Part shown: piece by piece, positions 5,825 through 44,563 of the stretch
Position numbering within the stretch: the first letter of the stretch is position 1
How the letters are laid out: each line of letters opens with the position of its first letter
Assembly: GCA_018650465.1 (NCBI GenBank)
Contig: JABIFY010000104.1
Span: 70,107-117,420, forward strand
From: Alphaproteobacteria bacterium
GTDB lineage: Bacteria > Pseudomonadota > Alphaproteobacteria > UBA2966
Length of the DNA: 47,314 nucleotides
Reading direction: 5' to 3'
Program-made: the position numbers and the translations under genes
Notes under the pieces: generated by a model
The model's input: only the letters and a program-made list of their open reading frames with translations
Told to the model about the DNA's origin: nothing
Databases searched by the model: none

Positions 5825-6598
5825 ATGAAAAATCCGATGAGCCTTGAAGGCAACAACATTATTGTTACAGGGGCCGGACAGGGCATTGGCGAAGCGGTCT
5901 CGCGGCTGGTCGTTGATCTGGGCGGGCGCGCTATCCTGGTCGATCTACAAGGGGACAAAATCAACGCCCTGGCCGACGAACTGGGCGCGGACAAGGCCGA
6001 GGCTTATGTGGGGTCTGTGGCCGAGCCTGGCTTTGTGCAAGAAATGGTTAACCAGGCCGTTGCCAAAAATGGCGCTGTGCATGGCCTGGTCAATAATGCG
6101 GGTATCGTGCGCGCCGCCATGGCGCATAAAATGCCCATCGACACCTGGCAGCAGGTTATCGACGTAAATCTATCCGGCGTGTTTTATTGCCTGCAAGCTG
6201 TCGGGCGTCACATGCTGGATCGCTACAAGGATGGTGATACCAGCCCGGCATCCATCGTCAATATTTCCTCAGATGCAGGTCGTCGTGGCACCATCGGCCA
6301 GATCAACTATGGCGCGGCCAAGTCCGGTGTTATGGGGCTGACAATGAGTGCCGCGCGTGAATGGTCCGGCAAGGGTGTGCGCATCAACACCATTTGTTTT
6401 GGCGTGGTGGAAACGGAAATGACCGAAACGATCCGGTCCGACAAGTTCCGCGAGGGCGTTATGGCCCAGGTACCCATGGGGCGTTTTTCTGATCCGGAAG
6501 AAGTCTCACAGCCTGTATGCTTTTTGTTGTCGCAAGCCGCCAGCTATATCACCGGTCAGCATCTGTCGGTGAACGGTGGCTACACCATCGGCGTTTAA
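5825..6598 (+). CDS. SDR-family NAD(P)-dependent oxidoreductase
   Basis: A 257-residue classical short-chain dehydrogenase, FabG-like in shape, with the TGAGQGIG nucleotide-binding motif, NNAG, and an intact Ser plus NYGAAK catalytic signature. It probably oxidises a hydroxyacyl-CoA or an alcohol in the pathway of this operon. It leads a nine-gene rightward operon and lies just downstream of the 5736-5764 symmetric block. The ATG at 5825 follows a GCAGGGA ribosome site; a second in-frame ATG at 5837 is possible. The IclR gene follows with no gap worth mentioning. The substrate is not readable from the sequence. Confidence 0.83.
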   Translation: MKNPMSLEGNNIIVTGAGQGIGEAVSRLVVDLGGRAILVDLQGDKINALADELGADKAEAYVGSVAEPGFVQEMVNQAVAKNGAVHGLVNNAGIVRAAMAHKMPIDTWQQVIDVNLSGVFYCLQAVGRHMLDRYKDGDTSPASIVNISSDAGRRGTIGQINYGAAKSGVMGLTMSAAREWSGKGVRINTICFGVVETEMTETIRSDKFREGVMAQVPMGRFSDPEEVSQPVCFLLSQAASYITGQHLSVNGGYTIGV

Positions 6599-6608
6599 AG
6601 GAAGTCCG

Positions 6609-7400
6609 GTGCCCAAACCTGTCGCCCGTGGTGGACCGCAATCCGTTGGACGTATTCTGACGATTCTGGAATCTCTCGCCAATGTCAGTCATGGGGCAAC
6701 CCTGACAGAACTGTCCGACAGCACGGGTGCGCCGAAAACAAGTCTTGTGGGTTTGCTCGCGGGCCTGACAGAAGAAGGTTGTTTAACGCGGGATGAAGGC
6801 GGGCGCTATTTTCTTGGGTCCCGTTTTTTGTCCCTGGCCATGCGGGCGGTAGCCGGGCGAGAGTTGAGTACCCTGGTGCGGCCCATATTGGTTGATTTGG
6901 TGGCGGCCACCGGCGAGACGGTCGTATTGGGTGCCTTGGCACCGGATGCTGATGAGGCCACTTATCTGGACAAGATCGAAAGCAGTAATCCCATACGCTA
7001 TGCGGTTACAGTGGGTGAGCGGCGGGAACTATATTGCACCGCCGTTGGCAAGTCCCTGCTGGCCTGGTTCGATGAAGATCGCCTGGACGCCTATCTGAAA
7101 GCCACTCAACGAACCCAATTCACAGATCAAACCATTACCGGCACGCGGGAATTGTTGGCTGAGCTGGCGCAAATTCGCCAAGACGGCCTGGCCCGATCCT
7201 ATGGTGAACGCGTCACCGGGGCCTGTGCCATCGCCGCCCCAATCTTTGCCGGAGATGGCGCGGTCGTCGCAACCCTGCTGGTGGCCGGACCGACTGAGCG
7301 CATGCAAGCAAATGCCGCCGCCCACGAAATAAAATTAAGAAAAGCCGCCGACAAGTGCACGCGCCTTGCGGGCGGCACACCTGAAAATCCGGAGAGTTAG
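6609..7400 (+). CDS. IclR-family transcriptional regulator
   Basis: A 263-residue IclR regulator: an N-terminal winged helix-turn-helix at about residues 10-70 (recognition region around GAPKTSLVGLLAGL) and a C-terminal effector-binding domain with YLDKIES and ELYCTAVGKSLLAW signatures. Such proteins sense small acids or aromatic/acyl metabolites. I prefer the GTG at 6609, which has AAAGGAAG five bases upstream, over the ATG at 6576, which lies inside the preceding SDR gene. It is embedded in the operon it presumably controls, between the SDR and the acyl-CoA dehydrogenase, so autoregulation through the 5736-5764 site is likely. Confidence 0.88.
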   Translation: MPKPVARGGPQSVGRILTILESLANVSHGATLTELSDSTGAPKTSLVGLLAGLTEEGCLTRDEGGRYFLGSRFLSLAMRAVAGRELSTLVRPILVDLVAATGETVVLGALAPDADEATYLDKIESSNPIRYAVTVGERRELYCTAVGKSLLAWFDEDRLDAYLKATQRTQFTDQTITGTRELLAELAQIRQDGLARSYGERVTGACAIAAPIFAGDGAVVATLLVAGPTERMQANAAAHEIKLRKAADKCTRLAGGTPENPES

Positions 7401-7404
7401 AAAA

Positions 7405-8565
7405 ATGAGTGTCGATTTCACCCCTGAACAACAGTTGATCCGCGATAGCATTTTGAAACTGTGTGAGCCTTTTGACGATCAATATTGGCTGGACCGGGAT
7501 AATGACGGTGTCTTTCCCCATGAATTCTGCAAGGCCATCGTGGACGAAGGCTTTATGGGCATCGCCATGCCGGAAGAATATGGCGGCAGTGGCCTTGGCA
7601 TAACCGAAGCTGCCACGATGGTTCAGGCCATCACCGAATCAGGTGCGGCCAACGCCGGGTTTGCCGCCATCGCCATCAACATCTTTGGCCTGAACCCGGT
7701 TGTAGTTTTCGGCACAGACGAGCAAAAGCGCCGCTGGTTGCCGCCGATCATAAAGCGTGAAGACGTTGCCTGCTTTGGCGTGACCGAAGCCGACACCGGC
7801 CTTGATACCACGCGTCTGAAAACCCGCGCTGTGTGGGACGGCGAGAACTATGTTGTCACCGGCGAAAAGATGTGGACCTCAACCGCCCAGCAAGCCAACA
7901 AGATTTTACTGATTGCCCGGACCAATCAAGACACCGAAAAGCCCATCGATGGCTTGTCGCTGTTTTATACTGATCTGGATCGTGACTATTGTGATATCCG
8001 GCCCATCGACAAAATGGGTCGCAAATGTGTGGATTCGAACACCGTCATATTCGATGGCCTGAAAATTCCGAAAGAAGATTTAATCGGTGAAGAGGGCATG
8101 GGCTTTCGCTACCTCCTGCATGGCTTGAACGCCGAACGTATTTTGATTTCAGCATCACTTGTCGGAATCGGCCGTCTTGCTTTGGGCAAGGCCGCGAATT
8201 ATGCCCGTGAACGCATCGTCTTTAATCGGCCCATTGGCATGAACCAGGGCATCCAGCATCCCCTGGCAGAATCCTGGGCGGAACTGGAAGCCGTCAATCT
8301 CATGGCCTTTCGGGCAGCAGAACTTTACGACCGCGGCGATGAATGCGGGCGGGAAGCCAATGCGGCCAAGTATCTGGCAGGAGAAGCGACCTTCAAGGCT
8401 TGCACCACAGCGGTGATGACCCATGGCGGCATGGGTTATGCCAAGGAATTTCATGTGGAGCGTTATATGCGCGAATGCATGATCCATCGTCTGGCCCCCA
8501 TCAGCCCGCAATTGATGCTGAGCTATATCGCCGAGCGCGCCCTTGGTCTTCCTAAATCCTACTAA
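7405..8565 (+). CDS. Acyl-CoA dehydrogenase
   Basis: A 386-residue acyl-CoA dehydrogenase: N-terminal helical domain with MPEEYGGSGLG, central beta domain with VTEADTGLDT and WTSTAQQA, and C-terminal helical domain ending LGLPKSY. The EGTSE-type catalytic glutamate is absent from the C-terminus; a helix-G glutamate in NAERILIS may be the base, as in isovaleryl-CoA dehydrogenase. It closely resembles the protein encoded at 39859, down to the last residues. The start at 7405 follows GGAGAG; the longer ORF from 7366 runs into the IclR coding sequence. It probably makes the 2-enoyl-CoA in this operon. Confidence 0.87.
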   Translation: MSVDFTPEQQLIRDSILKLCEPFDDQYWLDRDNDGVFPHEFCKAIVDEGFMGIAMPEEYGGSGLGITEAATMVQAITESGAANAGFAAIAINIFGLNPVVVFGTDEQKRRWLPPIIKREDVACFGVTEADTGLDTTRLKTRAVWDGENYVVTGEKMWTSTAQQANKILLIARTNQDTEKPIDGLSLFYTDLDRDYCDIRPIDKMGRKCVDSNTVIFDGLKIPKEDLIGEEGMGFRYLLHGLNAERILISASLVGIGRLALGKAANYARERIVFNRPIGMNQGIQHPLAESWAELEAVNLMAFRAAELYDRGDECGREANAAKYLAGEATFKACTTAVMTHGGMGYAKEFHVERYMRECMIHRLAPISPQLMLSYIAERALGLPKSY

Positions 8566-8598: not shown

Positions 8599-9771
8599 AT
8601 GAGCCGAAGTTGCAAAGCGTATATTGCGGGAGTTTTTGAACATCCCACCCGCAAGGCCGTAGACAAAACCATCGCCCAGTTACATGCCGAAGTTGCCATC
8701 GGCGCCCTGAAAGATGCCGGTCTGACCAAGGACGATGTTGATGGCTACTTCTGTGATGGTGCCACCCCTGGCTTGGGTGGCATGTCTATGGCGGAATATA
8801 TGGGCCTGGATATTACCTACACCGACAGTACGGAAACCGGTGGCTCGTCCTATCTGGTACATGTAGGTCACGCCATGACGGCCATTGCCGCAGGCAAATG
8901 CAAGGTGGCGCTGATCACCCTGGCCGGTCGTCCGCGCTCGGAAGGGGTCAAGTCCCTTGCTGCCAAGGATTATGGCGATGATCTGCCTGAGCGTGGCTTT
9001 GAGATACCTTACGCACCGGTGATAACCAATATGTATGGCATGGCGGCCAAACGGCACATGCATGAATTTGGCACGACCAGTGAACAGCTGGCCTGGATCA
9101 AGGTCGCGGCTTCCCATCATGCGCAGTACAATGAAAACGCCGTGTTGCGTGATGTGGTGACGGTTGATGATGTGGTCAATTCGCCGATGATTTCCGATCC
9201 TTTGCATCGTCTGGATTGCTGTGTGATCAGTGACGGCGGCGGGGCACTTGTTGTGGTCAGTCCTGAGATCGCCAAAACTTTGGGCGACCGCTGCGTCAAA
9301 TTGTTGGGCCAGGGCGAAGGCATCAAACACCTGAATAGTGGCCGCATCGATCTGACTTACACAGGTGCCGTCAAGTCCGGCCCCGTTGCCTTTGCCGAGG
9401 CAGGCCTGACACCGGCAGATATGGACTATGTCTCGATCTATGACAGTTTCACCATCACGGTGCTGGAAACCCTGGAGGACCTGGGTTTTTGCGCCAAAGG
9501 GGAAGGCGGCAAATTTGTCGCCGATGGCAATCTGATCTCAGGTACCGGCAAGCTGCCTTTCAACACTGACGGCGGAGGATTGTGTAACAACCACCCCGGC
9601 AATCGCGGCGGCATGACCAAGGTTATCGAAGCTGTGCGACAGTTGCGTGGTGAAGCCCATGCAAAGGTTCAAGTGCCGGATTGCACACTTGCTTTGGCCC
9701 ACGGTACCGGCGGCTCCATTGCCCAACGAACGGGTGCTGCGACAGTTATTATGGGAAGGAACGACGCATGA
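8599..9771 (+). CDS. Thiolase-like protein without the catalytic cysteine (Ltp2/SCPx-type, DUF35 partner)
   Basis: A 390-residue thiolase-fold protein of the lipid-transfer/SCPx group. The region that carries the nucleophilic Cys in true thiolases reads TETGGSSY (78-85), with no Cys. The active-site His of the GHP motif is kept as H332 in CNNHPG, and the second Cys position (CxG) is H368 in HGTGG. Tyrosines Y277 and Y281 lie in the MDYVSIYDSF block. Family knowledge: Cys-less members paired with a DUF35 protein, such as Ltp2 with ChsH2 in steroid side-chain breakdown, are retro-aldolases that release a ketone from a tertiary 3-hydroxyacyl-CoA. The stop overlaps the ATG of the DUF35 gene, so the two are made together. 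Aldolase rather than thiolase activity is inferred. Confidence 0.8.
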   Translation: MSRSCKAYIAGVFEHPTRKAVDKTIAQLHAEVAIGALKDAGLTKDDVDGYFCDGATPGLGGMSMAEYMGLDITYTDSTETGGSSYLVHVGHAMTAIAAGKCKVALITLAGRPRSEGVKSLAAKDYGDDLPERGFEIPYAPVITNMYGMAAKRHMHEFGTTSEQLAWIKVAASHHAQYNENAVLRDVVTVDDVVNSPMISDPLHRLDCCVISDGGGALVVVSPEIAKTLGDRCVKLLGQGEGIKHLNSGRIDLTYTGAVKSGPVAFAEAGLTPADMDYVSIYDSFTITVLETLEDLGFCAKGEGGKFVADGNLISGTGKLPFNTDGGGLCNNHPGNRGGMTKVIEAVRQLRGEAHAKVQVPDCTLALAHGTGGSIAQRTGAATVIMGRNDA

Positions 9772-10163
9772 CAAATCCAGAGCGAGTTTACGCCGATCCC
9801 TCCATCAATATGGAAACTGAAGCCTATTGGGAGGCCACGAAGCAGAACAAGTTATTGTTGAAAAAATGTGACGACTGTGGCGAAACCCACTGGTACCCGC
9901 GGGCCATTTGTCCCCATTGTTCCAGCAGCAATACCTGCTGGTACGAAGGCTCAGGCAAGGGCAAAATCTATTCTTTTTCTGTCATGCGCCGGGTGGAGGT
10001 TCCCTATGTCATGGCCTATGTCACGCTGGATGAAGGCGTCTCTTTGTTAACGAATATCGTGGAGTGCGATTTCGACAACCTGTCCATCGATCAAGATGTT
10101 GAAGTTGTCTTCCGTGCCACACAAGGCGATCAGGCCTTGCCCTTGTTTCGCCCTGTTGCATAA
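9768..10163 (+). CDS. DUF35 / OB-fold Zn-ribbon protein, partner of the thiolase-like protein
   Basis: A 131-residue protein with an N-terminal rubredoxin-like zinc ribbon, C34-x2-C37 and C48-x2-C51, followed by an OB-fold domain (about residues 60-130). DUF35 proteins form obligate complexes with thiolase-fold enzymes and bind acyl-CoA, for example in Ltp2-ChsH2, BbsAB and the archaeal HMG-CoA synthase/thiolase complex. I start the gene at the ATG at 9768, which overlaps the stop of the thiolase-like gene (ATGA), rather than the longer upstream ORF; the ribosome site is the GAAGGAACG before it. Confidence 0.88.
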   Translation: MTNPERVYADPSINMETEAYWEATKQNKLLLKKCDDCGETHWYPRAICPHCSSSNTCWYEGSGKGKIYSFSVMRRVEVPYVMAYVTLDEGVSLLTNIVECDFDNLSIDQDVEVVFRATQGDQALPLFRPVA

Positions 10164-10172
10164 AGGTCCGCT

Positions 10173-11381
10173 ATGACAAAACCCCTTGATGGTGTCAAAG
10201 TTATCGATTTATCGAACATGCTGATGGCCCCTTATGCCACCCAGATTTTGGGTGATATGGGGGCGGACATCATCAAGGTTGAGCCCCCCATTGGCGACCC
10301 CATCCGAGGCATTGGTCCGTACCGTAATCCCGGCATGGGCGCCATTTTCATGAACATCAATCGCAGCAAGCGCAGCATTGTTCTGGACCTGAAAAAACCA
10401 GAGGGCCATGCAGCTATTCTTGAGCTGCTGAAAGATGCCGATATCCTGATCTATAATCGCCGCCCGCAGGTGATGGATCGTCTGGATTTGTCCTATGAAA
10501 AACTGTCGAAGATTAATCCCCGTCTGATCTATGCCGGGCTTTATGGTTATGGCGAAGATGGTCCCTATGCTGGCAAGCCCGCCTTTGATGATTTGATTCA
10601 GGGGGCGGTTGCCATTCCGGCTCTGGGGCAGATGGCCAACGGTCTTGATCCGGTTTATACGCCAACTGCAATCGTCGATCGTGGGGTCGCCCTGTATGCC
10701 GTGGGCCAGATCAATGCGGCACTTTATCATCAGTTGAAGACAGGGCAGGGACAAATCGTCGACACGCCCATGTTTGAAATGATGGCGGGCTTTGTGCTGG
10801 GCGATCATATGGCGGGCTATACTTTTGAGCCACCGCTCGGGCCACCTGGCTACAAACGCATGTTGACGCCAAACCGCAAACCCTATCCCACCAGTGATGG
10901 TTATGTCTGCGTTCTGATTTACACAGATACCCACTGGCGACATTTTTTCAGAGCCTTGGGGCGCGAAGCTGAATTTGATTCCGATCCTCGTTACACCAGC
11001 ATGACGACCCGCGTTGAAAATATTGATACCATTTACAGTGACCTGGCCGACCTGCTGACCAGCCGCACAACTGCTGAATGGCTGACCTTTTTTGATGAGA
11101 CAGATATTCCGGCCATGCCTTTGCATACACCGCAAAGTCTGATTGACGATCCCCATTTGCAGGCCACGGATTTTTTCACCTTCAGCGACCATCCCACTGA
11201 AGGCCGCATTCGCGAAATGGCATCGCCCAGCACCTGGTCTGAAACCCAGCCGGGCTCAACACGTCCCGTGCCCTTGCTGGGTGAGCACAGTGCTGAAATA
11301 CTTCGTGAAGTTGGTTACAGCGATGAGCAAATTTCTGACTTGATGGAGAGCGGTGCGACGGCGGCACCTGCTGCCCAATAA
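10173..11381 (+). CDS. CaiB/BaiF class III CoA-transferase
   Basis: A 402-residue family III CoA-transferase, which moves CoA between a donor acyl-CoA and a carboxylic acid through an aspartyl-anhydride. The catalytic Asp is D169 in AIVDRGVA, at the position expected from formyl-CoA transferase. The N-terminal DMGADIIKVEPP and the NRSKRSIVLDL blocks are typical. It is followed by a CitE-type lyase and a second CaiB gene at 12306, so the two transferases might form a heteromer like SmtA/SmtB of Chloroflexus (malate or citramalate activation); this is inferred. Substrates are unknown. Confidence 0.87.
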   Translation: MTKPLDGVKVIDLSNMLMAPYATQILGDMGADIIKVEPPIGDPIRGIGPYRNPGMGAIFMNINRSKRSIVLDLKKPEGHAAILELLKDADILIYNRRPQVMDRLDLSYEKLSKINPRLIYAGLYGYGEDGPYAGKPAFDDLIQGAVAIPALGQMANGLDPVYTPTAIVDRGVALYAVGQINAALYHQLKTGQGQIVDTPMFEMMAGFVLGDHMAGYTFEPPLGPPGYKRMLTPNRKPYPTSDGYVCVLIYTDTHWRHFFRALGREAEFDSDPRYTSMTTRVENIDTIYSDLADLLTSRTTAEWLTFFDETDIPAMPLHTPQSLIDDPHLQATDFFTFSDHPTEGRIREMASPSTWSETQPGSTRPVPLLGEHSAEILREVGYSDEQISDLMESGATAAPAAQ

Positions 11382-11408: not shown

Positions 11409-12305
11409 ATGACTATTATCCGATCCTGGCTATTTGTACCCGGCGACAGTGAACGCAAGCTGGAAAAATCCCGTGAAAATCCGGCAGATGCCCTGATCCT
11501 GGATCTGGAAGACAGCGTCGCCGACGAGCGTCAGGAAATTGCTCGCGAAATGACCTGTGCCTATCTGAAAGACCGGCCGGACCGGTCAAAACAACAGCTC
11601 TGGGTGCGTATCAATCCGCTGGATAATCCTTTGTCTTTGCCCGACCTGGCAGCCGTGATGCCGGGGGCACCGGATGGTATCGTTCTGCCCAAGGTTTATT
11701 CTTCAGAAGAAGTGAACCTGCTGGCCGATTATCTGGATATTCTTGAAGTCAGTCATGGCCTGGAAAAAGGTTCAACCAAAATTCATTGCGTGGCCACAGA
11801 AACGGCGGCCTCCCTGCTGACCTTCCACACCTATCTGGATGGCATTACTGACCGTCTGGTGGCCATGACCTGGGGCGGGGAAGACCTGGCGGCAGCGCTG
11901 GGGGCCAGTGATAACAAACATCCCGTCACCGGCGAATATGATGCGCCCTTTGAATTTGCCCGCACCATGTGCCTGGCCACATCGCGCGCCATCGAGGCCC
12001 AACCCGTGGGCGTCGTCTGGGTCAACTACAAGGACCTGGACGGTCTGGAAGCCGACTGCCTGAAGGATCGCAAGGCCGGTTTCATCGGCAAGATCGCTAT
12101 TCATCCGGCCCAGTCGGAAGTCATCAACCGGGCCTTTACGCCTTCAGCAGAAGACATTGAACACGCCCGCAAGATCATCGAAGTGTTTGAACAAAACCCC
12201 GGTATGGGCACAGTCGGTCTGGACGGCAAGATGTATGACATGCCGCATCTGAAACAGGCACGTAATGTGCTGGACATGATGGCGCAAATCGGGGAATTGA
12301 ACTAG
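11409..12305 (+). CDS. HpcH/HpaI aldolase, CitE/malyl-CoA lyase family
   Basis: A 298-residue TIM-barrel lyase of the CitE/Mcl/CLYBL family, which cleaves or forms beta-hydroxyacyl-CoAs such as malyl-CoA or citramalyl-CoA with Mg2+. Visible landmarks are LFVPGDSERK (about 7-16), LILDLEDSV, the metal-binding MTWGGEDLAAALGA and the IHPAQ block in the C-terminal half. It is a stand-alone lyase; there are no citrate lyase alpha, gamma or accessory genes nearby. Flanked directly by two class III CoA-transferases, it plausibly acts on the CoA thioester they make. Its stop is immediately followed by the ATG of the second CaiB gene. Confidence 0.86.
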   Translation: MTIIRSWLFVPGDSERKLEKSRENPADALILDLEDSVADERQEIAREMTCAYLKDRPDRSKQQLWVRINPLDNPLSLPDLAAVMPGAPDGIVLPKVYSSEEVNLLADYLDILEVSHGLEKGSTKIHCVATETAASLLTFHTYLDGITDRLVAMTWGGEDLAAALGASDNKHPVTGEYDAPFEFARTMCLATSRAIEAQPVGVVWVNYKDLDGLEADCLKDRKAGFIGKIAIHPAQSEVINRAFTPSAEDIEHARKIIEVFEQNPGMGTVGLDGKMYDMPHLKQARNVLDMMAQIGELN

Positions 12306-13514
12306 ATGACTGGTGCACTGGACGGTATCCGGATCATTGATCTGACCACCGTAATTCTTGGCCCCTGGGCCGCACAAATGCTGGGCGACATGGGTGCCGA
12401 TGTGATCAAGGTGGAAACACCCATGGGCGACATGACCCGCTATAATGGTCCCCGTCGCAGCGATGATATGGGGGCCTTTTATTTAGGTGCCAACCGTAAC
12501 AAACGCAGTGTTGTCATCGACCTGACCACCGAAGAAGGCAAGGAAGCCTTGTTCAAGCTGGTGGGGACTGCAGATGTGTTCATGCATAACTTCCGCCCCA
12601 AGGTCTGCAAAAAACTGGGACTGGAATATGAAAAATTTGCCGAGGCCAATCCCGATCTGATCTATTGCGCGGCCTTTGGTTTTAACAGTGAAGGCCCTAT
12701 GGCCGACCGTCCGGCCTATGATGACATCATTCAGGCCGCCAGCGGCATGACTGATTTATTGTCCGTCATCGGTGGTGAGCCGCGCTTTGTGCCGACGATC
12801 ATGGCCGACAAAACATCATCCTTTCATGTGGTGTCGGCGATTATGGCGGGCTTGTTGCATCGTGAACGCGGCGGGACGGGCCAGGCCATCGAAGTTCCCA
12901 TGTTTGAAGGTTTGGTTGATTTTGTCATGGTTGAGCATTTGTTCGGCGAAACATTTGAGCCCCCCATTGGTGATATGGGCTACACCCGTTTGCTCAATAC
13001 ATCACGCCGGCCTTACGCCACAAAAGACGGGTACCTTGCGGTCTTGCCCTACAGCGATCAAAACTGGCAGGACCTGTTTGATGTTGCCGGGCGCGATGAT
13101 CTGAAAACCGATATCCGGTTTTCTGACATTTCGCAGCGCACCAAACACAGCCAGGAAGTCTACGATATCCTGGGCCAGATCGTTGCCACCAAAACATCTG
13201 CCGAATGGCAGTCGGCGCTGGATGCCCGCCATGTGCCGGTCCAGGTGGTGGTCACCAAAGAAGAATTGCTGGATCACGAACAATTAACGGCCACTGGATT
13301 TTGGCAAAAGAAAGAGCACCCGACGGAGGGCACCATGCGCTATCCCTCGCCGCCAGTGCAGTTTTCCAAAACACCGTCGTCGGTGCGCCGCTTGCAGCCA
13401 CGATTGGGCGAACACAGTCGTGAAGTGCTGGCCGAGGCCGGTTATTCCGATGCCGAGATCGATGCCCTGATGGCATCAGGTGTCTCAAAACAGTTTGCCG
13501 GACAGGCAGAGTAA
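12306..13514 (+). CDS. CaiB/BaiF class III CoA-transferase
   Basis: A 402-residue family III CoA-transferase, same length as the one at 10173 but only moderately similar to it. The catalytic Asp is D168 in IMADKTSS. The start codon abuts the stop of the CitE-like lyase with no spacer, so it is translationally coupled. With the earlier CaiB it may form a heteromeric transferase, or each may act on a different acid. The crotonase at 13528 follows after 13 bases. CoA donor and acceptor are not known. Confidence 0.86.
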   Translation: MTGALDGIRIIDLTTVILGPWAAQMLGDMGADVIKVETPMGDMTRYNGPRRSDDMGAFYLGANRNKRSVVIDLTTEEGKEALFKLVGTADVFMHNFRPKVCKKLGLEYEKFAEANPDLIYCAAFGFNSEGPMADRPAYDDIIQAASGMTDLLSVIGGEPRFVPTIMADKTSSFHVVSAIMAGLLHRERGGTGQAIEVPMFEGLVDFVMVEHLFGETFEPPIGDMGYTRLLNTSRRPYATKDGYLAVLPYSDQNWQDLFDVAGRDDLKTDIRFSDISQRTKHSQEVYDILGQIVATKTSAEWQSALDARHVPVQVVVTKEELLDHEQLTATGFWQKKEHPTEGTMRYPSPPVQFSKTPSSVRRLQPRLGEHSREVLAEAGYSDAEIDALMASGVSKQFAGQAE

Positions 13515-13527
13515 GAAAGAAAATATC

Positions 13528-14310
13528 ATGAGCAAGTACGAGTTCATTCTTTTTGACGTTGAGGACCAGGTCGCAACCCTGACCCTGAACCGTCCGGATG
13601 CCCTGAATGCCTTAACCATTGAAATGATGGCCGAGGTTCGGCTTGCCATGGCTGAAATTGAGGCTGACAGCAACATCCGGGCCTTGATCTTTACGTCGGC
13701 CGGACGGGGTTTTTGCTCTGGCCAGGACCTGAAAAACCGGCCCGCCCCAGGGACCGACATCGTCGAACTTTATTGTGATGTCTATCTGGGTGTGTTCAAG
13801 GATATCCAGGCTTGTCGGGTGCCGGTGATTATGGCGGTAAATGGCATTGCCGCAGGTGGTGGATTTTCCCTCGCCCTCAATGGCGACATCATCATGGCGG
13901 CCCGTTCCGCCAAATTCATCCAGGTCTTCAGCCGCATTGGCCTGATCCCTGATCTGGGTTCGACCTGGTTATTGCCGCGCGCCATTGGCCGCACCCGGGC
14001 GCTGAAAATCATGATGACCAACGAGACACTGATGGCAGAAACAGCTCTGGAATGGGGCATGATCACGGATTGTGTTGATGATGATCAGTTAATACCCCAT
14101 GCACGGGAGCTGGCCTTGCGTCTGGCGAAGGGCCCAACCCGGACCCTGGTTGCGACCCGCGCCACGGTCGACGAGGGAAATGACAACGACTTTGCCGCCC
14201 AGTTCCGCCGTGAGCTGGAAGTTAACGGTGTGATGCGGGAAACGTTTGATGGCATAGATGGCGTAAATGCCTTCCTGGAAAAACGACCATCTGCCTTTCG
14301 CGGGGAATAG
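13528..14310 (+). CDS. Enoyl-CoA hydratase/isomerase (PaaG-like crotonase)
   Basis: A 260-residue crotonase with the oxyanion-hole blocks RGFCSGQDL and IAAGGGFSLALNGD. The position of the second catalytic glutamate of hydratases is occupied by D142 in GLIPDLGSTWLLP, a pattern of PaaG-type and delta3-delta2 enoyl-CoA isomerases, so isomerase activity is at least as likely as hydration. The start at 13528 follows AAGAAAG; the longer frame from 13480 lies inside the CaiB gene. It is the last gene of the rightward operon and ends five bases before the convergent MarR gene, with no obvious terminator. Confidence 0.84.
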   Translation: MSKYEFILFDVEDQVATLTLNRPDALNALTIEMMAEVRLAMAEIEADSNIRALIFTSAGRGFCSGQDLKNRPAPGTDIVELYCDVYLGVFKDIQACRVPVIMAVNGIAAGGGFSLALNGDIIMAARSAKFIQVFSRIGLIPDLGSTWLLPRAIGRTRALKIMMTNETLMAETALEWGMITDCVDDDQLIPHARELALRLAKGPTRTLVATRATVDEGNDNDFAAQFRRELEVNGVMRETFDGIDGVNAFLEKRPSAFRGE

Positions 14311-15733: not shown

Positions 15734-16396
15734 TTATTTAGAGTTCAGATACAGCCTGAACATTTCCTTGAATTGATCGATTTGGGCGTCGCCGGCGGCG
15801 TCAGCACCGGACATCATTTTGGTCAGCGATAGTCCACGCAAAGCCATCAGCAAAGTGGATCGCCAGACCAGAATGTCTTGATCGCTGCGCGGGCTGTCAG
15901 CAAACATATCCAGCCACATGGCGCTGCGTTTTTCTTCCAACTCTACCAGGGTTTCCCGAATGGCCGTGCCCAGTTCCCGATCCAGGCGGTTGCCCACGGC
16001 CATTTCAACAAAGGCCGTGTAGGTGTTGCTGCCGAAGCCGGTCCAGTATTGATCGACGACCCTGTCGATACGGTCGGGCAGGGGTAGTTTCTTCAACTTG
16101 CCCACATCCATATGTTTGCTCAGGCGGTTGGAAACCTCAAACACCGTGGCTTTCAGTAAATCTTGTGGTGAAGAAAAATGATACTGGATTGCCCCACGGG
16201 TGACACCCGCGGCCTTGGCGACCTCAACGGTTGTCATGTGCGCGGCACCCTTTTTGTGCAACAGCAATATAGTTGCATCGATCAGCCTGGCACGTGTTTC
16301 CGCCCGGCGCTCTTCCTGGGTGCGCCGTTTTTTATGGCCTGCTGGGGACACTCTGGGGGCTTGATTCCTGACTGCATTTTCCGTCCCGGTCGTCAC
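15734..16396 (-). CDS. TetR-family transcriptional regulator
   Basis: A 220-residue TetR/AcrR regulator. After a basic N-terminal extension, the helix-turn-helix lies at about residues 35-80 (TTVEVAKAAGVTRGAIQYHFSS) and the rest is a helical ligand domain. It heads the leftward run with the AtuE-like hydratase and is divergent from the acyl-CoA dehydrogenase array at 16507, with the 14-base palindrome 16439-16452 in the shared promoter. By position it could be the counterpart of AtuR, the TetR repressor of terpene utilisation, but orthology is not shown. An acyl-CoA ligand is likely. Confidence 0.86.
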   Translation of the reverse strand: MTTGTENAVRNQAPRVSPAGHKKRRTQEERRAETRARLIDATILLLHKKGAAHMTTVEVAKAAGVTRGAIQYHFSSPQDLLKATVFEVSNRLSKHMDVGKLKKLPLPDRIDRVVDQYWTGFGSNTYTAFVEMAVGNRLDRELGTAIRETLVELEEKRSAMWLDMFADSPRSDQDILVWRSTLLMALRGLSLTKMMSGADAAGDAQIDQFKEMFRLYLNSK

Positions 16397-16438
16397 GGCG
16401 TTTTCCTGTTCCTGTGATGAAATAATCTATTGATACAT

Positions 16439-16452
16439 TCATTCATGAATGA
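16439..16452. promoter_or_regulatory. Perfect palindrome TCATTCATGAATGA, probable TetR operator
   Basis: A 14-base perfect palindrome in the 110-base gap between the divergent TetR gene and the acyl-CoA dehydrogenase array, about 45 bases from the TetR start. It resembles the TGAATGA..TCATTCA operators of TetR-type fatty-acid regulators such as Bacillus FadR. A further CATTC just to its left partly extends the repeat. Binding by the adjacent TetR is inferred. Confidence 0.6.
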
Positions 16453-16506
16453 TAGTTTTAGCTTGAATTTTTTAAAGACGCAAACTCTAATTGGCCGGAT
16501 GTGCAA

Positions 16507-17652
16507 ATGCTTTTCACCCAGGAACACAATGAAATTGCCGCCAGCTTGAACAAGTTCATCGAGGCCGAAATCAATCCTCACGTGGATGAATGGGAGGAGG
16601 CGGAAGCCTTCCCGGCGCACGAGCTGTTCAAAAAAATGGCAAAGCACGGATTTCTCGGAATCGGTAAACCTGAAGAATATGGTGGCTCTGGTCTGGATTA
16701 TTCCTATGAATCCATGGCCTCGGTGGCATTGGGAAATATCAACTGTGGTGGCGTGGCCATGGCAATCGGTGTGCAGACCAGCATGTCGACCCCCGCCCTG
16801 GCCCGGTTCGGAACTGACGAGTTGTGTCGGGACTATCTGGTGCCTGCCATCGCCGGTGACTCCGTCCGCTGCATCGGTGTGACGGAGGCCGCTGCCGGGT
16901 CGGATGTTGCCAGCCTGAAGACAGCCGCCCGCAAAGACGGCGATGATTATGTAATCGATGGCTCGAAGATGTTCATCACAAACGGTTTGCAAGCTGACTG
17001 GATGTGTTGCCTTTGTAATACCAGTGATGGCCCGGTGCACAAAAACAAATCCCTGATCCTTGTGCCCATGGACAGTCCGGGCATCAGCAAAACCAAAATC
17101 CGCAAGATGGGCATGATGTCGTCCGACACGGCCCAGGTGTTTTTTGATGACGTCCGCGTGCCGCAACGGAATTTGATCGGTGAGGAAAATCTCGGTTTCA
17201 TTCACCAGATGAAACAATTCCAGGAAGAGCGCATGTTTGCGGCTGCCCGGGGGATTGGTGTGATGACACGGGCCATCGAAGAAACTATCGATTATACGCG
17301 CGAGCGAAAAGCCTTTGGCAAATCCATTCTGGATAATCAGGTCGTGCACTTTAAGTTGGCTGAATTGCAAACCGAAGTGGAGGCCTTAAAAGCCTTGCTC
17401 TGGTCAGCTGTTGAAAAATATATCAGCGGCGAAGACGTCACGATGCTGGCTTCCATGGCCAAACTGAAAGTAGGCCGTACCCAGCGCCTGGTGATGGACA
17501 ACTGCCTGCAATATTGGGGCGGACATGGTTATGTCTGGGAAGCTTCGATTTCCCGGCGCTTTCGGGATTATCGCTTGACCTCAATCGGTGGCGGTGCCGA
17601 CGAAGTCATGCTTCAGGTTATATCGAAAATCATGGGTATTTCACCCGCCTAA
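16507..17652 (+). CDS. atuD: AtuD-like acyl-CoA dehydrogenase (citronellyl-CoA dehydrogenase type), copy 1
   Basis: A 381-residue acyl-CoA dehydrogenase: FIEAEINPHVDEWEE near the N-terminus, GVTEAAAGSDVASLK in the flavin site, YTRERKAFGK, and CLQYWGGHGYV near the end. The usual EGTSE catalytic Glu is replaced by GGGADE; a Glu in helix G (FQEERMFAAARG) may serve, as in isovaleryl-CoA dehydrogenase. The pattern matches citronellyl-CoA dehydrogenase AtuD as I remember it. The next gene is a near copy. I chose the ATG at 16507; an in-frame GTG at 16501 is equally poor in ribosome site. It is divergent from the TetR/AtuE-like genes. Confidence 0.72.
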   Translation: MLFTQEHNEIAASLNKFIEAEINPHVDEWEEAEAFPAHELFKKMAKHGFLGIGKPEEYGGSGLDYSYESMASVALGNINCGGVAMAIGVQTSMSTPALARFGTDELCRDYLVPAIAGDSVRCIGVTEAAAGSDVASLKTAARKDGDDYVIDGSKMFITNGLQADWMCCLCNTSDGPVHKNKSLILVPMDSPGISKTKIRKMGMMSSDTAQVFFDDVRVPQRNLIGEENLGFIHQMKQFQEERMFAAARGIGVMTRAIEETIDYTRERKAFGKSILDNQVVHFKLAELQTEVEALKALLWSAVEKYISGEDVTMLASMAKLKVGRTQRLVMDNCLQYWGGHGYVWEASISRRFRDYRLTSIGGGADEVMLQVISKIMGISPA

Positions 17653-24555: not shown

Positions 24556-26547
24556 TTATTCGGCTTCTTCGATTTCAATCAACAATGTATCAGCGGCGGT
24601 TTGGCTGCCGGGTATGGCATGAACTTCCATCACTGTGCCGTTCACTTCTGACAGAATTTCATGCTGCATCTTCATGGCTTCCAATACGGCAAGCCGATCA
24701 CCGCTTTTGACCGTATCCCCCGATTTTACACAAACCTCCAGCAAGGTACCATGCATGGGGGCCAGAATGCGGCCACTGCCCGCAACCTCTTCCGGCGCAC
24801 CGGCAAAGGCGATGTGATTGCGGAAGCTGGTGGTTTTACCTTCAACCGAGAGCCAGATGTGACCGGGTGTGGGGATGTGGTAATGAACCAGTTGACGACG
24901 GCCATTGATGCGCAGGCGGGCCGTATTGTCACCGGCTTCCAGCAGATCAATGGTCAGAGATGTTTCGCCGGACTGCACCAGATAACAATGCCGGTCTTGC
25001 GGTGTTACTGTCAGATCAAATTCGATCTCACCCCAGGCGAAGACATAGCGTGTGACCAGGCCCTGTCCACTGGACCAGTTCACCAAAGTCGGTGAGACAT
25101 TAACACATTTGACAAAGGCACTTTCGCGTTCCTCGTGATATTGCAAGACCGATGCCATGGCCGATTGCATCAGGTCAGGCGTGGTCGCGGCCAGATCGTC
25201 GTCGGTAAATTCATCGCCGATAAATGCCGTCGTGGCTTCACCCTTGGCGAAGGTTTCCCGGCCCAACACATCAATCAGAAAACCCCGATTGGTCGTCAGG
25301 CCAAACAGCACGGTGTCCTTCAAACCTTCGATCAGGCGATGGCGGGCAACCTCGCGGGTTTCACCCCAGGCCACGACCTTGGCGATCATGGGATCATAAA
25401 AGGGCGAAATATCTTGCCCGGTTTCAATGCCGCTATCAAAACGCAAGCCGTCCCCGGATGACGGCTGCCACAGATCAACAGTACCGGTGCAGGGCAAAAA
25501 ATCCTGGCTGGTGTCTTCCGCATAAAGCCGGACCTCAATGGCATGGCCCTCAAGCTTGATATCCTCCTGGCTCAAGCCTAAGGGATGTCCCTCGGCGACC
25601 TGGATTTGCAGAGCCACCAGATCCAGTCCGGTGATCATTTCCGTGACCGGGTGTTCGACTTGTAAGCGGGTGTTCATTTCCAAAAAATAAAATTCGCCCG
25701 CGTCATCCAGCAAAAATTCAACCGTACCCGCGCCGCGATAATTGATGCTGCCGGCGGCCTCCACGGCGGCGGCCCCCATGCGGGTGCGCAAACCAGGCGT
25801 CATGACCGGGCAGGGGCCTTCTTCAACCACTTTTTGGTGACGACGTTGAACGGAACAATCCCGCTCAAACAGGTGCACGACATTACCATGGGTGTCGGCA
25901 AAAACCTGCACTTCAACATGGCGGGGACGCATGACGGCTTTCTCAAGGATCAGTTCATCCGAGCCAAAAGCATTCAGCGCTTCCGACCGGGCGGAATTCA
26001 GGGCGTCGGGCAAGTCATGTGCGTCGTGCACAAGACGCATACCGCGTCCACCACCACCAGCGGCCGCCTTGACCATGATCGGAAAACCAATGTCATTGGC
26101 AGCTGATATCAGTGTTGCATCCGCCTGGTCGGTGTCTTCATAGCCCGGCACACAAGGCACCTTGGCATCGATCATGCGTCGCTTGGCGGCGGCTTTGTTG
26201 CCCATCAAATCGATGGACTCAGCAGAAGGGCCGATAAACACCAGACCAGCCGCTTCAACGGCGCGGGCAAAGTCTGCATTTTCTGACAAAAAACCATAGC
26301 CCGGATGAATGGCCTCGGCCCCGGTCTCGATTGCTGCGGCCAGTACCCGGTCCATATCCAGATAAGACTGGCCCACAGGGGCGGGTCCTAGCAAGACAGC
26401 ATCATCGGCCATTTGCACATGGGGGGCGTGCTCGTCGGCTTCGGAATAAACCGCGATGGTACGATAGCCTAAGGCCTGGGCCGTGCGCATGACGCGGACG
26501 GCAATTTCACCACGGTTGGCAATTAGAATACTTTTGAATGTGCGCAT
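24556..26547 (-). CDS. atuF: Acyl-CoA carboxylase alpha subunit: biotin carboxylase + BCCP (AtuF-like)
   Basis: A 663-residue biotin-containing subunit. Residues about 1-450 are biotin carboxylase with ATP-grasp (KAAAGGGGRGM, FLEMNTRLQVEHPVTE), and the C-terminal about 75 residues are a biotinyl domain with K626 in EAMKMQ. It carboxylates biotin with ATP and bicarbonate and passes the carboxyl to the partner encoded at 26558. Geranyl-CoA carboxylase (AtuF) and methylcrotonyl-CoA carboxylase (LiuD) share this architecture; AtuA upstream favours the geranyl type. The start is at 26547 (MRTFKSILIANRGE) with TAGGAG upstream; the frame extended to 26664 lies in the beta gene. Ten-base gap to that gene. 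Confidence 0.82.
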   Translation of the reverse strand: MRTFKSILIANRGEIAVRVMRTAQALGYRTIAVYSEADEHAPHVQMADDAVLLGPAPVGQSYLDMDRVLAAAIETGAEAIHPGYGFLSENADFARAVEAAGLVFIGPSAESIDLMGNKAAAKRRMIDAKVPCVPGYEDTDQADATLISAANDIGFPIMVKAAAGGGGRGMRLVHDAHDLPDALNSARSEALNAFGSDELILEKAVMRPRHVEVQVFADTHGNVVHLFERDCSVQRRHQKVVEEGPCPVMTPGLRTRMGAAAVEAAGSINYRGAGTVEFLLDDAGEFYFLEMNTRLQVEHPVTEMITGLDLVALQIQVAEGHPLGLSQEDIKLEGHAIEVRLYAEDTSQDFLPCTGTVDLWQPSSGDGLRFDSGIETGQDISPFYDPMIAKVVAWGETREVARHRLIEGLKDTVLFGLTTNRGFLIDVLGRETFAKGEATTAFIGDEFTDDDLAATTPDLMQSAMASVLQYHEERESAFVKCVNVSPTLVNWSSGQGLVTRYVFAWGEIEFDLTVTPQDRHCYLVQSGETSLTIDLLEAGDNTARLRINGRRQLVHYHIPTPGHIWLSVEGKTTSFRNHIAFAGAPEEVAGSGRILAPMHGTLLEVCVKSGDTVKSGDRLAVLEAMKMQHEILSEVNGTVMEVHAIPGSQTAADTLLIEIEEAE

Positions 26548-26557
26548 GATCTGGCTC

Positions 26558-28180
26558 CTACATCCGTGCCACGCCAAAGGCGTTGGCTTGCAGGGGTCTG
26601 TGTTTGGCTTCCCTGATAGTTTCCAGGGCAAAGCCAATAACCTTGCGGGTATCTCTAGGGTCAATCACGCCCTGATCCAGCAAGCGGCCTGAGGTATAAA
26701 AGGCATCAGCCTGGCTGTCGAAATGATCGATCAACTGTTGCTTTTGGGTTGCCAACGCTGCTTCGTCGATGGGTAGCCCTTTGCGTTCCGCCCCGGCGCG
26801 GGCGACCTGGTCCATGGTGGTGGCGGCTTGTTCCCCGCCCATGACGCCCGTGGTGGCATTGGGCCAGGCAAACAGAAAATCAGGATCATAGGCCAGCCCG
26901 GCCATGCCATAGTTCCCGGCGCCGAAACTGGCCCCGATATAAAACGTAATCTTGGGCACGCGCACATTGGTGATGGCCTGGATCATCTTGGCCCCGTGTT
27001 TGATCATGCCGCCCTGTTCATATTTCTTACCAACCATATAGCCGGTGATGTTGTTCAGCATGATCAGGGGCATATCGGCCTGGTCACAAAGCTGGAAAAA
27101 CTGTGCCGCCTTGGTGGCTTCCGCCGGGTCCATGGGGCCATTGTTGCCAACGACACCAACAGCCTGGCCGAATATCCTGGCCTGCAAACAGGCAATGTTA
27201 ACACCGTAGCGAGGTTTGAAATCTTCAAAGTCTGAGCCATCCACCAGGCGGGCGGCAACTTCGCGCACATCATAAGGTTTGCGATAATCCACCGGCACCA
27301 CGCCAGCGATTTCATCCGGATCATAAAGCGGTTCGATAAAGGCCGGGCGTGCGGGAACTGTACAGCGATCATTCCAGCCAAGACGGCCGATGGTGTCGCG
27401 GGCAACAATCAGGCCATGGGCATCGTCTTCAGCCAGATATTCCACGGTGCCGGTGACAGAGGCATGCATTTCTGATCCGGCCAATTCTTCGTCGTCGGCT
27501 TCTTCGCCGGTGGCGGCTTTGACCAGGGCGGCACCGCCCAAAGACATACGACCGCGCCCCTTGATGCCGATGACATAATCACTCATGCCCGGAAAATAGG
27601 CCCCGCCAGCGGTCGATGGACCATGCAGCACAACAAAAGTGGGGATACCGGCGGCGCTCATTCTGGCGAGACGGGCAAAGGCCCCGCCGCCATGGGCCCA
27701 GGCTTCGACCTGGTATTTCATCAGGTTGGCCCCGGCACTTTCCACCAGGTGCACAAAGGGCAGTTTTTGTAGCAGGGCCATATCCAGACAGCCGCGCAGC
27801 TTTTCGCCTGACTTTTGCGTCATGGCCCCGGCATTGATGCCGCTGTCACTGGCATAGATCATACAGCGCACGCCATTAATAAAGCCGATACCGGAGATGG
27901 CACTTGCACCAGGAATACTTTTTTCGCGGTCGTCCGTATCAACCATATAATTGGCCAGGCCATACAGGTCCAGAAAGGGCAGGCCGGGGTCGAGGATGCG
28001 GGCAACGCGTTCGCGAGGGGTCAGTTGGCCGCGCTCATCAAAGCGGGCCCGGCGACGCTCGGACAATTGTTTGGCCCGGTCTTTCAGGTCATGCAAATCG
28101 TCGACAAGGGCCAGCATATCAGCCCGGTTGGCCGCATATGCGTCAGATGCCGTGTTGGTTTTGGAAACAAAAACCGTCAT
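26558..28180 (-). CDS. atuC: Acyl-CoA carboxylase beta subunit, carboxyltransferase (AtuC-like)
   Basis: A 540-residue carboxyltransferase of the crotonase superfamily with N and C halves: GPSTAGGAYFPGMSD in the N half and IGASFGAGNYGMAG in the C half form the two oxyanion sites. It transfers carboxyl from biotin to the gamma-methyl carbon of a 3-methyl-2-enoyl-CoA. Length fits AtuC (geranyl-CoA) and LiuB (3-methylcrotonyl-CoA) equally; the coupling to AtuA decides for AtuC here. Its ATG overlaps the AtuA stop by one base (TGATG) and follows GGAGA. Confidence 0.82.
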   Translation of the reverse strand: MTVFVSKTNTASDAYAANRADMLALVDDLHDLKDRAKQLSERRRARFDERGQLTPRERVARILDPGLPFLDLYGLANYMVDTDDREKSIPGASAISGIGFINGVRCMIYASDSGINAGAMTQKSGEKLRGCLDMALLQKLPFVHLVESAGANLMKYQVEAWAHGGGAFARLARMSAAGIPTFVVLHGPSTAGGAYFPGMSDYVIGIKGRGRMSLGGAALVKAATGEEADDEELAGSEMHASVTGTVEYLAEDDAHGLIVARDTIGRLGWNDRCTVPARPAFIEPLYDPDEIAGVVPVDYRKPYDVREVAARLVDGSDFEDFKPRYGVNIACLQARIFGQAVGVVGNNGPMDPAEATKAAQFFQLCDQADMPLIMLNNITGYMVGKKYEQGGMIKHGAKMIQAITNVRVPKITFYIGASFGAGNYGMAGLAYDPDFLFAWPNATTGVMGGEQAATTMDQVARAGAERKGLPIDEAALATQKQQLIDHFDSQADAFYTSGRLLDQGVIDPRDTRKVIGFALETIREAKHRPLQANAFGVARM

Positions 28181-36303: not shown

Positions 36304-36759
36304 ATGTCAGGTCTCTGGTTTGAAGAATTCAAGGAAGGCATGGTTTTTGACCACGCCATTACCCGCACGATTACCGAAGCGGATAACATGTGGTTTTGTA
36401 ATGCCACATATAATACCCAGCCCCTTCACATCGATTTTCACTGGGCTGCCGAGAATTCGGAATTTGGCAAACCCCTGGTGAACTCGGTTTTTACGCTGGG
36501 TCTGATGATTGGTGTATCCGTGACGGATACAACGCTTGGGACCACTGTCGGCAACCTCGCCATGACAGATATGAATTTCCCAAGGCCTGTCTATCACGGG
36601 GATTCCATTCATTCGCGCACGACAATTCTGGAAACCCGCGAAAGCAAGTCGCGTCCGACAAATGGCATCGTTGTCTTTTATCACGAAGCCTTTAATCAGA
36701 ATGATGAACTGGTGGCCAACTGCAAACGTACCGGCCTGATGAAAAAGCGTCCGGCATAG
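36304..36759 (+). CDS. MaoC-family hydratase
   Basis: A 151-residue single hot-dog-fold protein with the hydratase motif N37-TQPLH42-ID44 and the central helix region FGKPLVNSVFTLGLMIG. MaoC hydratases add water to 2-enoyl-CoAs, often (R)-specific or acting on mesaconyl- and methyl-branched CoAs. It leads the long rightward operon of block H, after a strong AAGGGGAAG ribosome site, and is divergent from CaiB. A C-terminal NCKRTGLMKKRP tail is typical of acyl dehydratases of this type. Substrate not readable. Confidence 0.82.
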   Translation: MSGLWFEEFKEGMVFDHAITRTITEADNMWFCNATYNTQPLHIDFHWAAENSEFGKPLVNSVFTLGLMIGVSVTDTTLGTTVGNLAMTDMNFPRPVYHGDSIHSRTTILETRESKSRPTNGIVVFYHEAFNQNDELVANCKRTGLMKKRPA

Positions 36760-36775
36760 AAGGTTGGTGACCAAA

Positions 36776-37450
36776 ATGGATGTTGCACAAGCCATTAAAT
36801 CCCGGCAATCCTGTCGCCAGTTCAGTGACAAACCTGTCTCACTGGAGTTGGTGCGGAAAGTTTTGGAAACCGCACGCTGGTCGCCATCTGGCAGCAACGT
36901 TCAGCCCTGGCATATTGATGTGATGACGGGCGGTGTGTTGCAGGGGCTGGTTGACCGGGTAATGGCCCAGGATCATCTGTTTCCCTTTGGCGAAGGCACA
37001 GAATACCCGATCCATCCGCCCAAGATGAAAGAGCCTTACATGACGCGGCGCACTGAATGCGCTGCGGACATGTATGCCTCTGTCAATATTACCCGCGAAG
37101 ACCGGGATGCCCGAATCGGTCAATATGCCAAGAACCTGGAATTCTTCGGCGCGCCGGTGGGCTTCATGTTTTCTATTGATCGGACCATGGGCCAGGGGCA
37201 TTGGGCGGACATGGGCATGTTGTTGCAAACCATCATGCTGGTGGCGCGCTCGGAAGGGCTGCACACTTGCCCGCAGCAAGTCTGGGCCATGTGGCACAAG
37301 ACGGTGACCGAATATCTGAAGATCCCCGACAGTCGCATGATCTTTTGCGGCATGGGTCTTGGGTACATGGATGAAAAGCACCCTATCAATAACTGGCGCA
37401 CAACCCGCCAGGAAATCGACGATTTTACTTCCTTCTCAGGGTTCGAATAA
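36776..37450 (+). CDS. Nitroreductase-family flavoprotein
   Basis: A 224-residue FMN-dependent NAD(P)H oxidoreductase. The N-terminal SRQSCRQF and ARWSPSGSNVQPW motifs bind FMN, and the C-terminal FCGMGLGYMDE is typical. Native substrates may be quinones, enones or unsaturated acyl compounds. I take the ATG at 36776; GTG at 36767 and TTG at 36764 are in-frame alternatives, with AGAAGG at 36758-36763 the only ribosome site. Its last codons create a TTCGAATAAT copy (37442-37451). Its place between MaoC and three acyl-CoA dehydrogenases suggests an enone reduction or flavin role, which is inference. Confidence 0.82.
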   Translation: MDVAQAIKSRQSCRQFSDKPVSLELVRKVLETARWSPSGSNVQPWHIDVMTGGVLQGLVDRVMAQDHLFPFGEGTEYPIHPPKMKEPYMTRRTECAADMYASVNITREDRDARIGQYAKNLEFFGAPVGFMFSIDRTMGQGHWADMGMLLQTIMLVARSEGLHTCPQQVWAMWHKTVTEYLKIPDSRMIFCGMGLGYMDEKHPINNWRTTRQEIDDFTSFSGFE

Positions 37451-37484
37451 TCGATCCTAAATTTAATAACATCGGTGACGAAAT

Positions 37485-38681: not shown

Positions 38682-38691
38682 GAGCCGATTG

Positions 38692-39834: not shown

Positions 39835-39858
39835 ACGGCCTTAAAGGCAGGACCCCCT

Positions 39859-41022: not shown

Positions 41023-41053
41023 ATATCAAAAACCTTATTAGAGAGCCTGACAA

Positions 41054-41911: not shown

Positions 41912-41949
41912 AAACAATTCGACAGACGTGAGACATAAGGGGAAATATT

Positions 41950-42870: not shown

Positions 42871-42885
42871 ATCGGGGATGCCAAT

Positions 42886-43668: not shown

Positions 43669-43735
43669 GTCACCAATCGGAATTTAAACGAATCTGAACG
43701 TCGCGCTTACGCGATCCCAACCCGGAGACAACAAC

Positions 43736-44533: not shown

Positions 44534-44551
44534 GCTTCAAAGGTAAACAGG
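44518..44551. repeat. 17-base tandem duplication over the crotonase stop codon
   Basis: CTTCAAAGGTAAATAGG (44518-44534) is followed at once by CTTCAAAGGTAAACAGG (44535-44551), one mismatch. It spans the last codons and stop of the preceding gene and reaches to ten bases before the next ribosome site. It looks like a recent replication-slippage event. Confidence 0.9.
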
Positions 44552-44563
44552 CAGGATCAGGTG

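Follow-up and report, generated by a model that had tools for sequence, protein, structure and literature searches.

The gene pair examined here raises the question of which reaction is catalyzed by a thiolase-fold protein that has lost the thiolase nucleophile and is encoded next to a DUF35 protein. In the window, that is, the whole 47,314-nucleotide stretch of DNA analyzed, the thiolase-fold protein (390 aa), probably the large subunit of a retro-aldolase, is encoded at 8599..9771 (+), and the DUF35 protein (131 aa), composed of a zf-ChsH2 zinc ribbon and an OB_ChsH2_C domain, at 9768..10163 (+), with the stop of the former and the start of the latter sharing the 4 bases ATGA. The coordinates, frames, open reading frames, and stop/start overlap given by an earlier sequence-only reading of this DNA were borne out, as were the four zinc-ribbon cysteines (C34/C37/C48/C51) of the DUF35 protein. 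In the NCBIfam profile search, the thiolase-like protein was a clear member of NF006010 (PRK08142), scoring 687.3 bits against a cut-off of 462, whereas the BbsAB equivalog models remained below their cut-offs (140.9 versus 750 bits for BbsB and 34.1 versus 250 bits for BbsA). The label of NF006010 is 'thiolase domain-containing protein', without a stated function, and database names of proteins in the clade include 'thiolase', 'acetyl-CoA acetyltransferase', and 'lipid-transfer protein'. The DUF35 protein scored above the cut-off for both Pfam domains, zf-ChsH2 and OB_ChsH2_C (53.1 and 62.4 bits), and its nearest PDB chain is ChsH2(DUF35) of the Ltp2 complex (6ok1_B); it is a probable obligate partner subunit of the thiolase-like protein. 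A second thiolase/DUF35 pair in the same genome (G000:C60, about 16234-17616; L002, L146) keeps the Cys and an HDAF motif and provides a natural internal control.

The nucleophilic Cys with which the active-site helix of thiolases begins is replaced by Gly82, as anticipated from the TETGGSSY segment, which occupies residues 78-85. This assignment is supported by HMM alignments, in which the nucleophilic Cys of the archaeal thiolase 7yvy aligns with Gly82, and by the AlphaFold model, in which residue 82 starts the helix 82-97. The description of the protein as 'Cys-less' holds for the active-site position but not for the whole protein, which contains eight cysteines. His332 and His368 are located where they had been placed, the former being the retained His of the thiolase GHP motif (NNHP; conserved in 80/80 orthologues). 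In contrast, the occurrence of His368 at the position of the second thiolase Cys was rejected as a sign of lost thiolase function, because BbsB and several relatives bearing the nucleophilic Cys also have His there. As judged from the alignments, the residue that best separates the Gly/Tyr group from thiolases is Tyr281 of the IYDSF motif, which the sequence-only reading did not mention; it stands at the catalytic-water position, where thiolases have His (HDxF) or Asn (NEAF).

HMM alignment to 6ok1 and 9myr placed Tyr281 at the position of the catalytic base in the two thiolase-fold enzymes proven to be retro-aldolases (Tyr294 in Ltp2 and Tyr302 in Sal), Ser283 at Ltp2 His296 and Sal Cys304, and His332 at Ltp2 Tyr344 and Sal Gln352. 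In TcLtp2, Tyr294 of the YDHF motif is the base, His296 forms the oxyanion hole, and Tyr344 is the general acid; in CtSal, the catalytic residues are Tyr302 and Cys304 of YDCY, the equivalent of Tyr344 is Gln352, the thiolase nucleophile is replaced by Gly, and the C304S and C304H variants are inactive (PMC12329534). The window protein has both features of the Ltp2/Sal aldolase clade, namely a Gly in place of the nucleophile and the catalytic Tyr of the YDxF/Y motif. Three residues before His332, Cys329 is retained in all 80 orthologues as part of a C[NS]NHP motif and is replaced by Ser or another residue in the sister groups; a family-specific role of this residue is possible.

Conservation of these residues was assessed across Alpha-, Beta-, and Gammaproteobacteria in a set of 80 orthologous loci with 69-93% identity in the thiolase-like protein. 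The YDSF and NHP motifs were retained in every orthologue, leaving Tyr281, Ser283, and His332 all constant, and a DUF35 gene was located directly downstream in 79/80 loci, with all four zinc-binding cysteines present in 67 of those. Both the motif retention and the DUF35 adjacency are far beyond chance. In 12 loci, the DUF35 protein lacks the full four-Cys pattern and its thiolase-like partner is unchanged.

Among 145 related proteins, Gly82 and Tyr281 occurred together in 113 and Cys and His in 32, with no mixed cases, although these sequences are not independent observations, since we infer a single event for the change from Cys/His to Gly/Tyr. The two sets were split at 100/100 support in an unrooted tree of 56 proteins, and the same split was obtained in the tree with 145 rows. 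When the tree was rooted with canonical thiolases, the Gly/Tyr proteins formed one clade (SH-aLRT 100), in which the first lineage to diverge is that of Ltp2, followed by Sal, and in which the window family holds a nested position next to the 4u4e group. The phylogeny called for by the sequence-only reading therefore places the window protein with Ltp2 and Sal, apart from the Cys-bearing thiolases, and the predicted retro-aldolase function rests on this nesting among proven aldolases. Three loci, each from a different genome, contain two different Gly/Tyr thiolase-like genes in tandem, which suggests a heterodimeric version.

Within the Gly/Tyr proteins, position 332 was His in 92/92 sequences with Ala, Ser, or Asn at position 283 and non-His (Tyr or Gln) in 8/21 sequences with Cys or His at 283 (Fisher p 4e-7), an association that is only a hint because it reduces to one or two phylogenetically independent contrasts. 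It hints at a rule by which the general acid would be Cys at 283 (Sal), Tyr at 332 (Ltp2), or His at 332 (the window family).

The AlphaFold2 model of the thiolase-like protein had a mean pLDDT of 83.5 and a pTM of 0.87, with pLDDT below 50 in the loop 325-334 that carries His332. Its top Foldseek matches were 4u4e, Sal, and Ltp2. Structural similarity as proof of an aldolase was nevertheless rejected, and the fold alone cannot decide the function, because the VIA-align Z-scores of aldolases and thiolases are tied within 2 units (Sal 47.9, 4u4e 46.7, archaeal thiolase 46.2, and Ltp2 46.0).

The pair is embedded in a run of genes on the same strand. Upstream are an SDR dehydrogenase/reductase (5825..6598, +), which is conserved at the operon head and may act as a 3-hydroxyacyl-CoA dehydrogenase or in handling the carbonyl product, an IclR-family regulator (6576..7400, +), and the acyl-CoA dehydrogenase ACAD1 (7366..8565, +; listed from 7366, with a start near 7399 likelier), which is expected to make 2-enoyl-CoA upstream of hydration. 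Downstream are the family III CoA transferase CaiB1 (10173..11381, +), a CitE-like C-C lyase (11409..12305, +), a second family III CoA transferase, CaiB2 (12306..13514, +), and an enoyl-CoA hydratase/isomerase family protein (13480..14310, +; likely start about 13528); ACAD1, CaiB1, the CitE-like lyase, and the hydratase/isomerase are conserved neighbors. The whole run, from the SDR to the enoyl-CoA hydratase, is present in the window and in one further locus (L037). As far as the contigs reach, it is found in part, with some genes missing, in five loci of Sneathiella and its relatives, mostly with a MaoC gene beside citE. In a genome with an 82% identical thiolase-like gene, a shorter core consists of the SDR, acyl-CoA dehydrogenase, thiolase-like, DUF35, MaoC, and CitE genes.

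The nearest solved relatives of the CitE-like lyase are Yersinia pestis 3qll and human CLYBL, and its best NCBIfam model is RipC (itaconate degradation), which it matches below the cut-off; CaiB2 is nearest to human succinate--hydroxymethylglutarate CoA-transferase. The MaoC hydratase of the window (36304..36759, +) matches the Pfam domain MC_hydratase (mesaconyl-CoA hydratase), and a relative about 60% identical to it sits in the operon beside citE in Sneathiella and other relatives. These nearest relatives of CitE, CaiB2, and MaoC suggest that the window operon handles C5 dicarboxyl-CoA esters. With its acyl-CoA dehydrogenase, CoA transferases, lyase, and hydratase, the operon looks catabolic. 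A second catabolic cluster in the window (36304-45370, +) comprises this MaoC gene, three acyl-CoA dehydrogenases, an MFE-2-type hydratase, SDRs, and crotonases. The operon and this cluster may serve one pathway, since in locus L040 the thiolase-like operon is directly preceded by genes homologous to the three acyl-CoA dehydrogenase genes and one crotonase gene of the cluster.

Distant orthologues occur in other contexts. Two acyl-CoA dehydrogenases accompany the thiolase-like gene in five loci, four of which also contain a MaoC hydratase; this latter combination is that of the Ltp2 operon and speaks for the retro-aldolase. The neighbors of a distant orthologue in Parvibaculum are a P450 and an acyl-CoA ligase. 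In Porticoccaceae and other Gammaproteobacteria (four loci), a lone pair directly follows purA and other genes of housekeeping type. In view of these varied contexts, the module is reused, and the substrate in the window therefore cannot be read off the family.

The sequence-only reading had considered a terpene or branched-chain setting. A cluster resembling those for acyclic terpene utilization is present on the opposite strand (24556-30033, -) and encodes a biotin carboxylase, a carboxyltransferase (26558-28180, -), and AtuA (28180-30033, -). The carboxyltransferase is geranyl-CoA-carboxylase-like, with a match to 5ikl at E 1e-161 versus 1e-133 for MCC, Gly at the GCC selectivity position, and no MCC insertion. 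The geranyl-CoA-carboxylase-like enzyme and AtuA lie 14-20 kb from the thiolase-like/DUF35 pair, a proximity that is physical only. Strong AtuA matches were missing in 5/18 tested genomes with the thiolase-like gene, and tblastn found no AtuA beside this gene in 19-kb loci outside the window's genus; in those loci, the geranyl-CoA-carboxylase-like enzyme was likewise not seen near the pair. Because of this patchy co-occurrence, we did not adopt the terpene cluster as the setting of the pair. The genes conserved with the pair in the operon encode CoA transferases, CitE, and MaoC rather than terpene enzymes.

The linkage of Gly82 with Tyr281, the common clade with Ltp2 and Sal, the motifs retained in all 80 orthologues, and the nearly invariant DUF35 gene make a retro-aldolase the best reading. 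We consider it probable that the pair is a DUF35-dependent enzyme on the thiolase fold that cleaves a 3-hydroxyacyl-CoA to a carbonyl compound and a shorter acyl-CoA. The main counter-evidence is the conserved SDR at the operon head; this enzyme, like an MFE-2-type SDR found next to some of the distant orthologues, would be consistent with a route through a 3-ketoacyl-CoA. In that case, the pair would cleave a 3-ketoacyl-CoA in the thiolase (Claisen) manner but with no intermediate bound covalently to Cys, as part of a bbs-like beta-oxidation with the SDR as 3-hydroxyacyl-CoA dehydrogenase. The retained His332 and a gene content resembling the bbs toluene operon, with CaiB transferases, acyl-CoA dehydrogenase, hydratase, SDR, DUF35, and thiolase (bbs roles, PMC10818641), speak for such a route. 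However, all sampled Cys-bearing relatives have His at the Tyr281 position, no mixed pattern was found among the 145 proteins, and BbsB itself has HDAF. In addition, the window protein lies within the Ltp2/Sal clade, and thiolytic cleavage is excluded by the authors for Sal (PMC12329534), and the genome encodes a distinct Cys/His-type thiolase that is paired with a DUF35 protein of its own (on C60). Taken together, Claisen-type cleavage appears improbable.

Still less probable is another reaction on the same fold and residues, either acyl-CoA decarboxylation or the aldol (condensing) direction. The Cys-lacking relative TbSLP slowly decarboxylates malonyl-CoA, but Sal does not (PMC12329534), and the catabolic look of the operon also speaks against this reading, even though aldol reactions are reversible in principle. 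A catalytically dead thiolase-like subunit with a role in carrying acyl-CoA or as a scaffold is very unlikely: the loss of the nucleophile and the name 'lipid-transfer protein' of some relatives would agree with it, but Tyr281, Ser283, and His332 are constant across orthologues as little as 69% identical, and the same clade contains proven enzymes.

For the retro-aldolase, we propose that the neighboring acyl-CoA dehydrogenase and a hydratase would supply the 3-hydroxyacyl-CoA substrate, which would be cleaved directly to an aldehyde or ketone and a shorter acyl-CoA without oxidation of the 3-hydroxy group and without free CoA. By homology to Ltp2 and Sal, Tyr281 would take the proton of the 3-OH group, the C2-C3 bond would break, and the carbonyl compound would leave, the DUF35 protein completing the substrate channel. 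The residue pattern further suggests that the acyl-CoA enolate may be protonated by His332 at the Ltp2 Tyr344 position. Ser283 alone is unlikely to be the acid, since the inactive C304S and C304H variants indicate that Ser cannot replace Cys304 of Sal. The released acyl-CoA could be, as a guess, a C4-C5 dicarboxyl-CoA of the succinyl-, itaconyl-, or mesaconyl-CoA type that would pass to the CoA transferases, MaoC, and CitE.

The predicted set of a Tyr base and a His acid is probably a new combination of catalytic residues in thiolase-fold retro-aldolases; the papers searched contained nothing relevant to PRK08142, PRK06158, or the YDSF motif and no description of the YDSF variant. More speculatively, the window family, together with the YDSF/YDAF group that is its sister, may constitute a large unrecognized class of retro-aldolases outside steroid metabolism, with a Tyr base and a GHP-derived His acid. 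As part of this tentative proposal, a substituted dicarboxylic acid would be broken down in the window operon to an aldehyde or ketone and a dicarboxyl-CoA (itaconyl, mesaconyl, or succinyl type), which would supply MaoC and the citramalyl-CoA-lyase-like CitE.

For the window protein and a large set of its relatives, retro-aldol cleavage of carbon chains is the probable reaction. If the members of the clade are retro-aldolases, their beta-oxidation-like pathways bypass both the oxidation of the 3-hydroxy group and thiolysis, with aldehydes or ketones as products, and many automatic pathway reconstructions in Proteobacteria would be wrong at that step. The change in thiolase-fold chemistry would then have involved one replacement of Cys/His by Gly/Tyr, followed by three choices of acid (Tyr, Cys, or His), and the window family offers a direct test of how it occurred.

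Among the characterized systems, the benzoylsuccinyl-CoA thiolase BbsAB (7pxp) resembles the window pair in combining a thiolase with a DUF35 protein in an operon with CaiB-type CoA transferases, a dehydrogenase, and a hydratase. This operon likeness is real, but closeness to BbsAB was rejected because the catalytic residues differ, BbsB being a true thiolase with HDAF and the window protein having YDSF. The steroid C3 side-chain aldolase TcLtp2-ChsH2(DUF35) (6ok1) shares with the pair the fold, a DUF35 protein with a C4 zinc ribbon, the Gly, and the Tyr of YDxF, although the thiolase-like proteins are only 33-34% identical, YDHF corresponds to YDSF, and no steroid gene context was found around the window pair. 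The Ltp2-ChsH2 design proposed by the sequence-only reading accordingly stands with respect to the clade, the Gly at the nucleophile position, the predicted Tyr base, and the DUF35 partner, but not with respect to Tyr344 and His296, which are replaced by His332 and Ser283. The bile-acid C5 side-chain aldolase CtSal-Shy(DUF35) (9myr), whose substrate is a secondary alcohol and whose product is an aldehyde (PMC12329534), likewise has the common fold, a DUF35 partner, the Gly, the Tyr302 base, and a place in the clade. Given this activity of Sal, the tertiary 3-hydroxyacyl-CoA substrate and ketone product put forward by the sequence-only reading are only one possible case for the window pair. Sal differs in its acid Cys304 (YDCY), which corresponds to Ser283, and in Gln352 at the position of His332; furthermore, the DUF35 domain of Shy has a C3H1 zinc finger and is fused to a MaoC hydratase, whereas that of the window is of the C4 type and a separate protein. 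The window pair belongs to the known family NF006010 and follows the Ltp2/Sal design with a different putative acid residue. The closest solved structure by sequence is 4u4e from Sphaerobacter thermophilus (E 1e-89, 43-46% identity), a protein titled only 'putative thiolase' that belongs to the sister group of the window family and carries the same GGSS / YDSF / HP set.
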